From: Rhizobium ruizarguesonis
GTDB taxonomy: Bacteria > Pseudomonadota > Alphaproteobacteria > Rhizobiales > Rhizobiaceae
Reading direction: 5' to 3'
Assembly: GCF_012349115.1 (NCBI RefSeq)
Contig: NZ_PQIG01000090.1
Location: 1 to 64,000, forward strand
DNA length: 64,000 bases
The notes under the pieces were generated by a model, which saw nothing but the letters and a program-made list of their open reading frames with translations, ran no database searches and had not been told where the DNA came from. Below are positions 41,431 through 45,951 of this stretch, piece after piece (the stretch's first letter is position 1; every line of letters starts with the position of its first letter). The position numbers and the translations under genes are program-made.

Positions 41431-41513
41431 TCGGTTGGGGTGCCGGCTCTGGGCGCAACGTCTGCGTGAGAATAAATCTCATTGCTCTCCTGGCTTTCGC
41501 CGCTATTCTCCAG

Positions 41514-41557
41514 CCAAAGAAAATCGGGCCAAAGAAAATCGGCCAAAGAAAATCGGG
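41514..41557. repeat. Three tandem copies of a 14/15-base repeat
   Basis: CCAAAGAAAATCGG(G) occurs three times head to tail, at 41514-41528, 41529-41542 and 41543-41557. The last copy ends in GGGAGGA, which is the ribosome binding site of the Dabb gene. The repeat therefore forms its 5' leader. Confidence 0.9.
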
Positions 41558-41567
41558 AGGACCACTG

Positions 41568-41876
41568 ATGATCCTGCACTGCGTATTCCTGCGGCTGAAG
41601 ACCGCGGTGACGACCGAAGACAAGCAGTCGCTGTTTGCGGCGATCGTCGCCCTGAAACAGGTCATTCCCGGCATATTGGATATCAAATACGGGCCGAATG
41701 TTTCGCCCGAGGGTTTGCATGGCGGCTTCGTCGACGGGTTTGCCGTGACCTTTGAAAGCGCCGAGGCCCGCGACGCCTATCTCATCCATCCCGAGCATGT
41801 GACGGTGGGCGAGCGTATCGTCTCGTCGACAGATGGAGGCCTTGCCGGCATCCTGGTCTTCGACCTCAATTTGTGA
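41568..41876 (+). CDS. Dabb (stress-responsive A/B barrel) protein
   Basis: A 102-residue Dabb-domain protein, starting MILHCVFLRLKTAVTTEDKQSLF and ending VSSTDGGLAGILVFDLNL, with the HPEHV motif characteristic of the family. Dabb domains are dimeric alpha/beta barrels related to ABM and NIPSNAP, and they bind small molecules. GGGAGGA upstream of the ATG at 41568 marks the start; the longer frame upstream is only translated tandem repeat. Confidence 0.86.
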   Translation: MILHCVFLRLKTAVTTEDKQSLFAAIVALKQVIPGILDIKYGPNVSPEGLHGGFVDGFAVTFESAEARDAYLIHPEHVTVGERIVSSTDGGLAGILVFDLNL

Positions 41877-41908: not shown

Positions 41909-42808
41909 TCAGCTCGATTTCGCCATGGCGGCGGCGAGCTGATCGACATTGTACTTGAACATCTTCTCGTAGGTCGGCGCCGGTCCCTTGGCGTCGGACA
42001 GGGATTCGACATAGAGCTCGCCGCCGGGCTCGGCACCGGTTGCCTTGGCGACCTGCTTGACCAGGCGCGGGTCGTTGGAATTCTCGAAGAAATAGGCTTT
42101 CACATGCTCGCCCTTGATCTGCTCGATCAGCTTGGCGACGTCGGCGGCCGATGCCTCGCTTTCTGTGGACAGCCCAAGCGGTGCCAGGAAGCTGACATTA
42201 TATTCACGGCCGAAATAGCCGAAGGCATCGTGGCTGGTCAGCACCTTGCGGCGATCGTCGGCCACCTTGTCGAATTTCGCGTGGGCGTAGGCGTTCAATT
42301 CATCCAGCGTCCTGGTGTACTTCTCGGCATTGGCCTTGAAGGCGGCGGCGTCCGTGGGATCGGCCGATGACAGCGCCTTTTCGATATTGGCGACCCAGAC
42401 CTTGACGTTGACGGGGCTGTTCCAGACATGCGGATCGGTAATCTGTGCGCCGTCCTCTTCCATGGTGCGGGTGTTGATGCCTTCGGAAACGGTGACCGGT
42501 TTGCCCTTATAGCCCGAGGCGGTGATCAGCCGGTCCATCCAGCCTTCCAGTCCCTCGCCGCTGACGAAGGTAACCTGCGCTGCGTTCAAATTCTTCGCAT
42601 CGGCCGGCGACGGCTCGAATTCATGGGGGTCGCCGTTCGGCACGACGAGGCTCGTCACCTTGACGTGCTCGCCGCCGACCTGCTTGACGACATCGGCAAG
42701 CACGGTGAAGGAGGCCACAACCTTCAGCGTTTCGGCGGAGGCGGGCATGGCCGACAGCGCCATCAAAGCGGGGATTGCTGCGGAGAGAAGCAGTCTGTGC
42801 GATGTCAT
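41909..42808 (-). CDS. aztC: Zinc ABC transporter substrate-binding protein, AztC-type
   Basis: A 299-residue cluster A-I metal-binding protein with signal peptide (ending ASA). It would bind zinc in the periplasm and hand it to the AztB permease. Ligand candidates are His in GDPHEFEPS, His in DPHVWNSP, His in TSHDAFGYF and the Asp in NSNDPRL, a His/His/His/Asp set typical of zinc rather than manganese. There is no long His-rich loop before DPHVW, as in AztC and unlike ZnuA. Last gene of the operon, 16 bases after aztB. The AztD chaperone gene of the Paracoccus operon is absent here. Confidence 0.88.
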   Translation of the reverse strand: MTSHRLLLSAAIPALMALSAMPASAETLKVVASFTVLADVVKQVGGEHVKVTSLVVPNGDPHEFEPSPADAKNLNAAQVTFVSGEGLEGWMDRLITASGYKGKPVTVSEGINTRTMEEDGAQITDPHVWNSPVNVKVWVANIEKALSSADPTDAAAFKANAEKYTRTLDELNAYAHAKFDKVADDRRKVLTSHDAFGYFGREYNVSFLAPLGLSTESEASAADVAKLIEQIKGEHVKAYFFENSNDPRLVKQVAKATGAEPGGELYVESLSDAKGPAPTYEKMFKYNVDQLAAAMAKSS

Positions 42809-42824: not shown

Positions 42825-43697
42825 TCAGCCCTTCAAATGCGGGCGGGGGAAGAAGCGCCGGGCCAGGCCGGAAGGCGCGAAAAGAATAGAAAAGCCGTAG
42901 AGGATCGCCGCCGTCATGATGATCGTCGGGCCGGAGGCGAGCTCGAGATGGTAGGAGGCGATCAGGCCGAGATAACCGGAGGCGGCGGCACTGGCGGCTG
43001 ATATCGCCATCATCACGGCTAAGCTGCGCGACCAGAGCTGGGCGACGGCTGCCGGCAGCATCATCAGGCCGACGGCCATCAGCGTGCCGAGCGCCTGGAA
43101 GCTGGCGACGAGGTTCAGCACCACCAGCAGCAGGAAGAGCACGTGATAGACCGGCCCGCGCCCGCCGACGGCGCGCAGAAAACCCGGATCGAAACATTCG
43201 GCCACCAGCGGCCGGTAGATGAAGGCGAGGACGACGAGGGTCAGCGAGGTGATCGCGCCGATCAGATAAAGGGCGGGCGCATCGATCGCCAGGATGGTGC
43301 CGAAGAGCACATGCAGCAGATCGATATTCGAGCCGCGCAGCGAGACGATCAGCACGCCGAGCGCCAGCGAGGCGAGATAGAAGCTGGCAAAGCTCGCATC
43401 CTCCTGCAGCGCGGTCATCCGGCTGACGGCGCCGGAAAGCAGCGCCACCGACAGGCCGGCGATGAGGCCGCCGAGGCCCATCGCCGTCAGCGACAGGGAG
43501 CCGGCGACGAGGTAACCGATGGCAGCCCCCGGCAGCACGGCATGGCTCATCGCGTCACCCATCAGGCTCATGCGCCGCAGCATCAGGAAGACGCCGATCG
43601 GGCCGGAGCCGAGCCCAAGGCAAAGGCAGGCGATGAGCGCCCGGCGCATGAAACCGTAATCGGCAAAGGGCGCCAGGAAGAGATCGTAAGCCGTCAT
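42825..43697 (-). CDS. aztB: Zinc ABC transporter permease, AztB-type
   Basis: A 290-residue inner-membrane permease of the ABC-3 family with about eight hydrophobic spans. The conserved stretches MRRMSLMGDAMSHAVLPGAA (as LRRMSLMGDAMSHAV), LLHVLFGTILAID and FQALGTLMAVGLMMLPAA are all present. Its ATG overlaps the AztA stop by four bases (43694-43697), so the two are translationally coupled. It forms the membrane channel for the ATPase upstream and the binding protein downstream. Confidence 0.92.
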   Translation of the reverse strand: MTAYDLFLAPFADYGFMRRALIACLCLGLGSGPIGVFLMLRRMSLMGDAMSHAVLPGAAIGYLVAGSLSLTAMGLGGLIAGLSVALLSGAVSRMTALQEDASFASFYLASLALGVLIVSLRGSNIDLLHVLFGTILAIDAPALYLIGAITSLTLVVLAFIYRPLVAECFDPGFLRAVGGRGPVYHVLFLLLVVLNLVASFQALGTLMAVGLMMLPAAVAQLWSRSLAVMMAISAASAAASGYLGLIASYHLELASGPTIIMTAAILYGFSILFAPSGLARRFFPRPHLKG

Positions 43698-44443
43698 GCC
43701 GCCGGCGCCTCTTCGGGTGCACAGGCATTCGCATCCTCATCCCAGCGCTCGGCCATGGCGCGCGCTTTCAGGAGATTGACGGAGGACATGACGTCTGCGG
43801 TCGCACCCCAGCCGACCAGCTCGCGGGCAAGCAGCAGGGTTTGCGGGAAATGGGCGCGGACGAGCTCGAAATCGTGCAGCACGGCGATCACCGTGCGGCC
43901 TTCGCCATGCCAGCGGGTGACGATATCGACGAGGTCCCTGGTGGTGCGGGCATCGATTGCCGTAAACGGCTCGTCGAGCAGGATGATGCCGGCATCCTGC
44001 AGCAGCAGGCGGGCAAAGAGCACGCGCTGGAACTGGCCGGCCGACAGCGAGCCGACATGGCGCCGGCCGAAGCCTTCGAGGCCGACGGCAGAGAGCGCCT
44101 CGCCTGCCCTCTTCACCTCGGCGGGCGCGATGCGGCCGAAGGCGCCCGTCTTCTTCCAGGCGCCGAGCATGACGGTGTCGATGACCGAGATCGGAAAACG
44201 CCGGTCGATCTCGGCCGCCTGCGGCAGGTAACCGAATTCCGCCCGCCCCAGCCTGTGCTCGACCCTGCCTTCCCCGGGGCGAAGCTCGCCCATGATCGCC
44301 TTCAGCAGCGTCGACTTGCCCGCCCCGTTCGGCCCGGCAATCGCCGTCAGGCTGCCCGAGGCGAAGGCGCCGGAGACATGATGGACGGCGGGGTGCCGGT
44401 TATAGGCGACGGTCAAATTCTCGAGACGGATCAGCGGCGTCAT
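43694..44443 (-). CDS. aztA: Zinc ABC transporter ATPase, AztA-type
   Basis: A 249-residue ABC ATPase: Walker A GPNGAGKST, Q-loop GYLPQAAEID, signature SLSAGQFQRV (SAGQF in place of the usual SGGQ), Walker B IILLDEPF and the H-loop VLHDFE. It energises zinc uptake through AztB. Its start codon overlaps the stop of the small membrane ORF just upstream (44440-44443, ATGA). Members of this branch of metal importers commonly show the SAGQ variation. Confidence 0.93.
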   Translation of the reverse strand: MTPLIRLENLTVAYNRHPAVHHVSGAFASGSLTAIAGPNGAGKSTLLKAIMGELRPGEGRVEHRLGRAEFGYLPQAAEIDRRFPISVIDTVMLGAWKKTGAFGRIAPAEVKRAGEALSAVGLEGFGRRHVGSLSAGQFQRVLFARLLLQDAGIILLDEPFTAIDARTTRDLVDIVTRWHGEGRTVIAVLHDFELVRAHFPQTLLLARELVGWGATADVMSSVNLLKARAMAERWDEDANACAPEEAPAA

Positions 44444-44568
44444 GGCAAGAGAACCGCCCAGTGGATCGCCAACCAGAGGAGCGCAATGACCAGTGCCATG
44501 CCGATCACCCTAGATAGAGCCGACTGTCCCAGCAGGCTGACGGAGGGGCGGTCGGGGCTCGGGGGCAT
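44440..44568 (-). CDS. 42-residue single-span membrane ORF leading the zinc importer operon
   Basis: A short frame starting at the ATG at 44568 with AGGAT eight bases upstream. Its product has a polar, proline-rich start (MPPSPDRPSVSLLGQS), then one hydrophobic span of about 20 residues (IGMALVIALLWLAIHWAVLL) and ends LLP. The stop codon overlaps the aztA start by four bases, an arrangement that makes expression coupled. It is too short for routine gene finding. It could be a small subunit or regulator of the transporter, but no similar protein is recalled. Confidence 0.62.
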   Translation of the reverse strand: MPPSPDRPSVSLLGQSALSRVIGMALVIALLWLAIHWAVLLP

Positions 44569-44583
44569 GGCACATCCTACAAT

Positions 44584-44610
44584 GTAATAACATTACGGTT
44601 ATGTTATAAC
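44584..44610. promoter_or_regulatory. Zur-like operator pair
   Basis: Two adjacent imperfect palindromes, GTAATAACATTAC (44584-44596) and GTTATGTTATAAC (44598-44610), begin 16 bases upstream of the small membrane ORF. The second contains ATGTTATAAC, close to the TGTTATA-type zinc-uptake regulator sites of alphaproteobacteria. Position before a zinc importer makes zinc-repressed control likely. Confidence 0.68.
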
Positions 44611-44742
44611 GATTGCGGCGAGATTGAGGCGGAAGCTAGTCCCAGATTCATTGCTAAGCTAAATACGGGCAGCATTCGACATGAGATGATCGCGTGCGCG
44701 CATCCATTTGACAGCCATATGCTGCTGAGCCAGATTTGACGC

Positions 44743-45132
44743 ATGATCAGGCCATGGCCCCTACTTGTTGACCATATTCGCAGCGCGCGAGGACGTTCGG
44801 AGGACGAAAAATTCTCGTCGGCCTTGCAGGGTGTTGAGCAACTTGCCGATTTCATCTCTCGAAGTTCGCTTCGGGATGCGCTGTTCGGATGGACATCGAT
44901 GGCTGATCTATGCGTCCAACAAACCGACCATGCCCCTCCCTCAGTGGCCTACCTTCGGATTTCAGCGCAATCATCGGGCCTGATCGAGTTTCGCTATATC
45001 GACACGAATGTGGAACGCCGGCAATGGACGCGGACGGAAACGCCTGAACGAGCTGCTCGCAGGCTTAGGACCTTCTTAGACCAACTTCATTGGGTTTCAG
45101 GTCCTGACAGCTTTGCTGCCATCCCGAACTAA
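44743..45132 (+). CDS. Hypothetical protein, 129 residues
   Basis: A cytoplasmic protein with a helical start (LLVDHIRSARG) and a C-terminal segment of mixed strands and helix (VAYLRISAQSSGLIEFRYIDTN, TPERAARRLRTFLDQLHW). A short upstream region and no obvious ribosome binding site make this less secure, but amino-acid use is coherent along its length. No family is recognised. It faces the ABC permease gene across about 125 bases. Confidence 0.5.
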   Translation: MIRPWPLLVDHIRSARGRSEDEKFSSALQGVEQLADFISRSSLRDALFGWTSMADLCVQQTDHAPPSVAYLRISAQSSGLIEFRYIDTNVERRQWTRTETPERAARRLRTFLDQLHWVSGPDSFAAIPN

Positions 45133-45258
45133 GAGTTTGCGGCCTGGTCATCCAAACTCGCATTGGCCATCCCGCCTTCAATCAGCCAATCGGCGCTATG
45201 CAAAGCGCAAATCTGGTGATCTGGAATATCATCGATCAAAGAAAGCGCCCGACGCGCT

Positions 45259-45951
45259 TTAGGCCCATACCCTCAGAGCCCGTTCCATCCGGTCGGCGGC
45301 GTATGTGACGAGATAGGCGATCACCATGTAGATGACGACCGCGATCAGGAAGGCTTCGAGATAGTAGAAGTTCAGCGCCGCGGTCAGCTGCGACTGGGCG
45401 AAGATGTCGACGACCTCGATCGCAAATCCCAGCGACAGCGCCTTCATGATCACCATGATGGAGTTGGCGAGATCGGGGATGGCCGCGACGATGACCTGAG
45501 GCAGCATCACCCGGCGGAACAGCTGGCTGCGCTTGTAGCCTAGGGAGTAGGCCGCATCGGCCTGACCGTTGTCGAAGGAGTTGAGTGCCCCCTTCACGAC
45601 TTCAGCCTGGAAGGCTGCGACGCAGGCGGTCAGGGCGACGATGAGCGTGATCCAGTTCGGCGTCGAGTGACCGTTATAGTCGATGCCGACGAGCGAGGTC
45701 AGGAACTGCAGCGTCGGCGGCAGGCCGTAATAGGCGAGGAAGATCACGATGACCATCGGAACGCCCTTGAAGACGACCTTGTAGGCGACGACCAGTTCCC
45801 GAAGCAGCGGGACCCGCCGATATTCCACCATCGCGAAAAGGCTGCCGACGATCGTAGAGAAGACGAAGATTCCAAGCGCCATGGCGAGCGTCACCGGGAC
45901 CGCGCCGAGGATATCCCAGAGATCGGGAAGAAGGACTTCGGAATCGAACAT
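45259..45951 (-). CDS. Amino-acid-type ABC transporter permease
   Basis: A 230-residue inner-membrane permease of the HisM/GltK family. It has a conserved EAA region (SLGYKRSQLFRRVMLPQVIVAAIPDLANSIMVIMKALSLGFAI) and about five spans. It is the last of six minus-strand genes that form one operon. It pairs with the other permease 20 bases upstream and with the ATPase and binding protein. Substrate unknown. Confidence 0.9.
   Translation of the reverse strand: MFDSEVLLPDLWDILGAVPVTLAMALGIFVFSTIVGSLFAMVEYRRVPLLRELVVAYKVVFKGVPMVIVIFLAYYGLPPTLQFLTSLVGIDYNGHSTPNWITLIVALTACVAAFQAEVVKGALNSFDNGQADAAYSLGYKRSQLFRRVMLPQVIVAAIPDLANSIMVIMKALSLGFAIEVVDIFAQSQLTAALNFYYLEAFLIAVVIYMVIAYLVTYAADRMERALRVWA

Follow-up and report, generated by a model that had tools for sequence, protein, structure and literature searches.

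A small predicted membrane protein encoded directly ahead of the ATPase gene of a putative ZniCBA-type zinc importer in Rhizobium ruizarguesonis

The importer operon and its small first ORF

Three importer genes lie on the minus strand of the window (the whole 64 kb stretch of Rhizobium ruizarguesonis DNA that was analysed), in the order ATPase, permease, substrate-binding protein (SBP). They encode a ZniC/AztA-like ATP-binding protein of 249 amino acids (43694..44443), a ZniB/AztB-like permease of the ABC-3 family of 290 amino acids (42825..43697) and a ZniA/AztC-like SBP of the ZnuA family of 299 amino acids (41909..42808). A gene for a Dabb-domain (stress-responsive A/B barrel) protein, at 41466-41876 on the plus strand, is convergent with the SBP gene.

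Ahead of the ATPase gene, on the same strand, is a small ORF of 42 codons plus stop (44440..44568, stop codon at 44442-44440), which begins 125 nt ahead of the ATPase start in the window and encodes MPPSPDRPSVSLLGQSALSRVIGMALVIALLWLAIHWAVLLP, with one predicted helix at residues 12-40 and conserved Arg20 and Trp32. A probable ribosome-binding site, AGGAT (44574..44578, minus strand), is separated by five bases from the ATG at 44568, and the stop codon overlaps the ATPase start (44443) in an ATGA at 44440..44443 on the minus strand, an arrangement that suggests translational coupling of the two genes. An earlier note had proposed this unlisted minus-strand frame, with its AGGAT and its ATGA overlap, and its coordinates, frame and sequence all proved correct. 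A consensus scan of 44400-45260 detected no sigma-70-type promoter.

The best NCBIfam models for the three importer proteins are AztA, AztB and AztC, but all three scores fall under the curated cut-offs (AztA 208/220, AztB 262.6/280 and AztC 271.1/350 bits), and the operon matches zniCBA; the name aztA, under which the ATPase gene had been introduced, is imprecise. Membership in AztABCD was rejected on these scores and on the lack of AztD. No AztD-like frame was found in the 64 kb window or, at E≤1e-3, in the window genome, in a search run without a control genome but with queries that recovered AztD genes at seven further loci; the claim that AztD does not lie next to the small ORF is borne out on both counts. 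The AztABCD system of Paracoccus has an ATPase, a permease and an SBP related to those in the window, but it also has AztD, whereas the window importer does not.

The window SBP has H62, H127, H193 and E268 as its ligands, contains seven histidines in all and lacks a His-rich central stretch. The same four ligands are printed for ZniA of R. leguminosarum in the portions of that report consulted (PMC12183173), and because the SBP carries His62, His127, His193 and Glu268 as ZniA does, the window operon is, as judged from its sequence, of the ZniCBA type found in R. leguminosarum and not AztABCD. As far as the consulted portions go, the ZniCBA systems of R. leguminosarum (rlv_3442-3444) and Klebsiella pneumoniae share the ATPase-permease-SBP order of the window (PMC12183173, PMC10797113), and the former also resembles it in its SBP ligands, in Zur control, which is predicted for the window, and in a Zur box 153 bp ahead of the ATPase gene. 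The Cupriavidus system that goes by the same name, ZniCBA, was set aside as a relative, being an RND efflux system. The window genome encodes two ABC-3 permeases but yields a single small-ORF match, so the second permease is without a recognisable small ORF.

The operator region

A perfect Zur-type palindrome, GTTATAACATAAC (GTTAT-N3-ATAAC, 44598..44610, minus strand), ends 29 nt ahead of the small ORF. A second palindrome, GTAATGTTATTAC (GTAAT-N3-ATTAC, 44584..44596, minus strand), starts at 44596, 153 nt 5' of the ATPase ATG at 44443. At one mismatch or fewer, the 64 kb window holds a single copy of GTTATNNNATAAC, where 0.19 would be expected by chance. The Zur-like operator that had been claimed ahead of the small ORF is present as a perfect palindrome.

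The consulted portions of the R. leguminosarum report (PMC12183173) describe zinc uptake and Zur repression of the zni operon for strain UPM791 and print the Zur box of rlv_3442 (zniC) 153 bp upstream. In the same portions, a zniC fusion with a 258-bp upstream fragment is about as active as the full fusion and one with an 88-bp fragment has basal activity; the start of the window small ORF, at 125 nt, falls inside this published 258-88 bp regulatory gap before zniC (PMC12183173).

Within 250 nt upstream, a perfect GTTAT-N3-ATAAC was present in 22/30 genus, 5/38 class, 20/40 phylum and 46/72 named loci, and a box with one mismatch at most in 25/30, 19/38, 23/40 and 58/72, respectively, against a background in first-order resamples of 0.0 perfect boxes and 0.1 to 0.6 at one mismatch or fewer. 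Since the count of perfect boxes in the class set is low, the operator appears to have drifted or to be different there. The importer operon of the window, for which Zur control is predicted from the operator, opens with the small ORF.

Folding of the transcript was no better than that of shuffled sequences (z = 0.43) and no Rfam match was found; an RNA leader or riboswitch was rejected on these grounds.

Conservation and selection within the genus

The small protein was detected by tBLASTn in 58/60 genus genomes at E≤0.01, and the other two gave no match at that threshold. In all 30 of the genus loci fetched, the ATGA is kept with an AztA-like ATPase frame behind it. In 29 sequences compared across their final 33 codons, the pN/pS ratio is 0.26 for the frame of the ORF (5-95% bootstrap 0.20-0.45), whereas the two other frames give 0.98 and 2.59; one sequence with a one-codon insertion (L017) was left out, as were pairs differing at 30% of sites or more or at fewer than three sites. 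The small ORF is under purifying selection. Non-conservation would have counted against the earlier note, and what was found instead is presence in 58 of 60 genomes, selection on the protein and a position before the ATPase gene that is kept.

Distribution and linkage to the ATPase gene

A 14-row profile matched 22/199 family-level genomes at E≤0.01. Eighteen of these 22 matches precede an ATPase gene, the four weakest do not, and the gene is therefore patchy within the family. Rows L047-L050 and L068 were dropped because they had no adjoining ATPase of the right type or did not belong to the family.

At the class level, a 30-row profile matched 110/385 genomes at E≤0.05. Adjacency was scored against the 150 AztA matches listed for the same 385 genomes, and at E≤1e-6 all 37 of 37 matches adjoin the ATPase gene, each directly upstream of an AztA-like gene. 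The adjacent share is 45/46 at 1e-5, 65/69 at 1e-3, 74/89 at 0.01 and 78/119 at 0.05, and without the 14 genomes that supplied the profile it is 23/23 at 1e-6 and 51/55 at 1e-3. The sole non-adjacent match at 1e-5 (L157) also precedes an ATPase frame once the locus is read. At one locus (L106), the small ORF is not adjacent but stands some 1 kb ahead of the ATPase gene, with another stretch between them.

No copy of the small ORF away from the ATPase gene was found at E≤1e-6 in the 385 class-level genomes. This linkage bears on the idea that the small protein is a zinc buffer or a docking site for cytosolic zinc-chaperone GTPases, and a neighbour of the importer only through shared regulation. 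Genes for GTP-binding proteins do lie near several loci with the small ORF, and some of the protein tails are His-rich, but such genes also lie near AztD-type loci that have no small ORF, and with no copy apart from the ATPase gene at that threshold this reading is very improbable.

In the phylum-wide profile search, 67/398 genomes matched at E≤0.01, in 68 rows. Of these rows, 58 were read (in 40 longer loci and 29 short ones, with some overlap, plus two more), and all 58 small ORFs stand before an ATPase gene; the ten rows outside this reading include the weak matches G900:C12, G853, G771 and G760. The earlier note had looked to other Rhizobiales for relatives of the gene. The family is not limited to that order and reaches far into other Pseudomonadota.

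The named-species census was chosen by the permease. One permease-alignment scan of a collection of 84,980 species was made and the best 80 of at least 587 confirmed relatives were taken; an enteric-type permease stood first in the alignment, which favoured enterics, although the choice was independent of the small ORF. A script that accepted any profile match in the right position found the small ORF in 75/80 named loci, with 32 of the 75 matches scoring below 20 bits. Compared with DNA controls, 75/79 real loci were positive by script against 2-3/79 in reversed or shuffled DNA, and at 10 bits or more 71/79 real loci were positive and none of the controls. Two small ORFs (L253 and L300) were added by reading, and two contigs (L274 and L296) start within the ATPase gene or right at it, leaving 78 readable loci, 77 of which carry the small ORF. 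Carriers include Pectobacterium, Serratia, Yersinia, Rahnella, Pantoea, Enterobacter and Klebsiella spallanzanii (with a TTG start), as well as Agrobacterium, Bradyrhizobium and Chitinimonas, and the insect symbionts Ca. Doolittlea (10.8 bits) and Ca. Gillettellia keep it as well.

Several individual loci depart from the usual arrangement or extend it. In Ca. Ecksteinia (L269, 1766-1785) only a five-codon frame is present, with its ATGA overlap with the ATPase kept. In a Paracoccaceae MAG (L300:1757-3370) the ATPase and permease are fused in a 537-aa frame with the small ORF in front, and a 184-aa frame that is Fur-like by eye lies further upstream. Neisseria gonorrhoeae (L328:1022-1244) has a small ORF of 22.5 bits and an ATGA before the ATPase gene.

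The Agrobacterium tumefaciens locus L280 and the N. gonorrhoeae locus L328 are presumably the published troCBA and mntABC. Both have the small ORF with an ATGA overlap, and in the portions of the literature consulted no small subunit is mentioned for TroCBA or MntABC. From the gonococcal locus, it is possible that importers described for manganese and for zinc share a small subunit.

The gene tables are uneven. Those of Neorhizobium, Bartonella sp. HY761 and the Thioclava plasmids leave the small gene out (PLSDB tables are incomplete), and those of Skermanella and the Paracoccaceae strain La 6 enter it as a 'hypothetical protein'. A chance or spurious ORF might be argued from its shortness and from its being unlisted in three of the five tables that show the adjoining ATPase, but conservation, selection, linkage and the reversed and shuffled controls contradict this reading, which hardly deserves credence. 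The small ORF at 44440-44568 on the minus strand is a real protein-coding gene.

Anatomy of the small protein

All of 68 diverse sequences have both Arg20 and Trp32. Among 215 distinct places (after the merging of duplicates, and with a lean towards the genus and the enterics), the pattern R-x(10-12)-W is present in 195; Pantoea members are one example of those without the Trp. The median length is 42 residues, and tail lengths are approximate, start codons having been chosen by rule. AlphaFold models one helix over residues 12-40, with a mean pLDDT of 85.0 that rises to 96 in residues 21-30 and 94 in residues 31-40. In the 195 places, the stretch up to the Arg holds on average 2.8 Lys and Arg residues and the stretch beyond the Trp 0.18. 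The N-terminal side is the richer in 191 of the 195; because of this excess, a cytoplasmic N-terminus is predicted.

The 4-nt overlap, in which the ATPase start lies one base before the small stop codon, is kept in 172/215 places. This is an argument for a leader ORF, in which translation would matter and not its product, bringing ribosomes to the ATPase start, and the five-codon frame of Ca. Ecksteinia, which retains the ATGA, is in keeping with it. However, coupling needs no conserved Arg and Trp, and because conservation is seen in the amino acids while the transcript has no notable RNA structure (the folding and Rfam results given above), a dedicated subunit is the better explanation; a leader ORF is improbable.

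About a fifth of the places (41/215) have a tail with four or more His; the window member has no His-rich N-terminal tail. Six places have three or more His at the ATPase N-terminus (one of them, L062, hardly so), never together with a His-rich small-protein tail, although about one joint case would be expected by chance and the exclusion is not significant. At four loci (L105, L111, L148 and L302) a short small protein goes with a His-rich ATPase start, as though the segment had been transferred. An H-R-H ... GPCHFSLMSL motif, a possible metal site, is shared by the small-protein tails at six loci from a single family (L199-L204).

These tails are relevant to the proposal that the small protein acts as an inhibitor or regulator, which damps, degrades or gates the importer as cytosolic zinc rises, faster than Zur could. 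The small gene stands behind the same operator as the importer, His-rich tails would lie on the predicted cytoplasmic side, and histidines on the ATPase N-terminus but never on both proteins fit a metal site near the ATPase. On the other hand, most members, including that in the window, have no such tail, and the mutual exclusion carries the statistical limit just given, so that an inhibitor or regulator is a conceivable but unlikely reading.

Known families and literature

No fitting family was found in Pfam, where seven families each matched 1 of 68 members (best E 0.0073), or in NCBIfam, where three families matched 2, 1 and 1 of the 68 members (best E 0.021), and no PDB chain matched the small protein at E≤1; membership in a known family was rejected on these searches. 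KdpF, CydX and AcrZ are tiny single-helix proteins that join larger membrane complexes, which are not ABC metal importers. They resemble the small protein in having one helix and a small size, but no sequence relation to it was found in the Pfam, NCBIfam and PDB searches.

In open-access PMC literature, nothing in titles or the beginnings of abstracts pointed to the small ORF. Ribosome profiling of Sinorhizobium meliloti yielded seven novel sORFs in transport operons, and the word 'zinc' does not appear in the main text (PMC10117765). Work on ZniCBA-type importers in R. leguminosarum and K. pneumoniae, which includes mutants and a solved binding protein, has treated them as three-gene systems, and the small ORF is unmentioned in the portions of these reports that were consulted (PMC12183173, PMC10797113). 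Relatives of these laboratory-studied systems carry it, K. spallanzanii (with its TTG start) among them.

Loci without the small ORF

Of the 150 AztA matches listed at the class level, 72 have no adjacent small-ORF profile match. When 20 of the higher-scoring of these loci were read, twelve were found to have a divergent small ORF, by profile or by reading, and L106, with its distant small ORF, is one of the twelve. The other eight are of the Sit/Mnt type, with a binding-protein gene ahead of the ATPase and no small ORF in place; a second permease is visible in seven of them, and in the eighth (L115) the contig ends.

Among 16 scanned plasmid loci, seven (L313, L315-L319 and L323), one of them from Paracoccus ferrooxidans, carry an AztD-like gene, and in these the region ahead of the ATPase is without a small ORF (best score 4.7 bits). 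The small ORF is present in eight others (recognised by reading in L320, at 5.8 bits), and the remaining locus (L314) has none, nor does its table show an ATPase gene before the permease. The window 42-aa protein itself has no match at E≤1 in the plasmid records. Across 197 loci and the window, with flanks of a few kilobases, AztD-like frames occur in those seven only. Because the seven AztD loci are without the small ORF, the absence of AztD from the window is part of a pattern.

A tree of the permeases from 84 chosen rows, built by a quick method, groups the seven AztD-type permeases in one clade (SH-aLRT 99), which it leaves inside or beside the 69 small-ORF rows. The four labels on this tree need three changes against 14.6 in shuffles, and the presence of the small ORF follows permease lineage.

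A candidate subunit of the importer

The small protein looks like an overlooked part of the ZniCBA-type transporter. Because its distribution is lineage-bound and its place is fixed, the favoured explanation, to which we give a probability of about two in three, is that it is a dedicated importer subunit, seated on the permease with its N-terminus in the cytoplasm and stabilising or tuning import. In this scheme the small protein would be translated in step with the ATPase, and its single helix would be inserted with the N-terminus in the cytoplasm and the C-terminus at the periplasmic face. By analogy and from the lineage pattern, the helix bearing the Arg and Trp may pack on the permease, and the permease-ATPase complex would then be stabilised or tuned under zinc limitation. 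In the members that have one, the His-rich N-terminal tail might serve in feedback or hand-off by binding zinc close to the ATPase. The earlier proposal, of a gene that opens a zinc-import operon and may encode a subunit or regulator, is upheld by the conservation, the kept place before the ATPase and the Zur-type box upstream, although the operon is of the ZniCBA and not the AztABCD type.

Several observations weigh against a dedicated subunit. The seven AztD-type and eight Sit/Mnt-type loci manage without the small ORF, Ca. Ecksteinia retains only its remnant and two of the 60 genus genomes gave no match. The low scores of 32 of the 75 census script matches and the rarity of perfect Zur boxes in the class set (5/38) count on the same side.

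A broader and more speculative extension, which we regard as rather doubtful, is that the Zni/Azt/Mnt branch of cluster A-I metal ABC importers ancestrally had four subunits, the small protein being the fourth. Its N-terminal tail would sense cytosolic zinc and control the ATPase through the permease, and the AztABCD branch would have lost it on acquiring the periplasmic chaperone AztD.

If the small protein is a dedicated subunit, reconstitution and structural work that omits a fourth membrane subunit would be incomplete. Zinc uptake when the metal is scarce matters for both symbiosis and infection.
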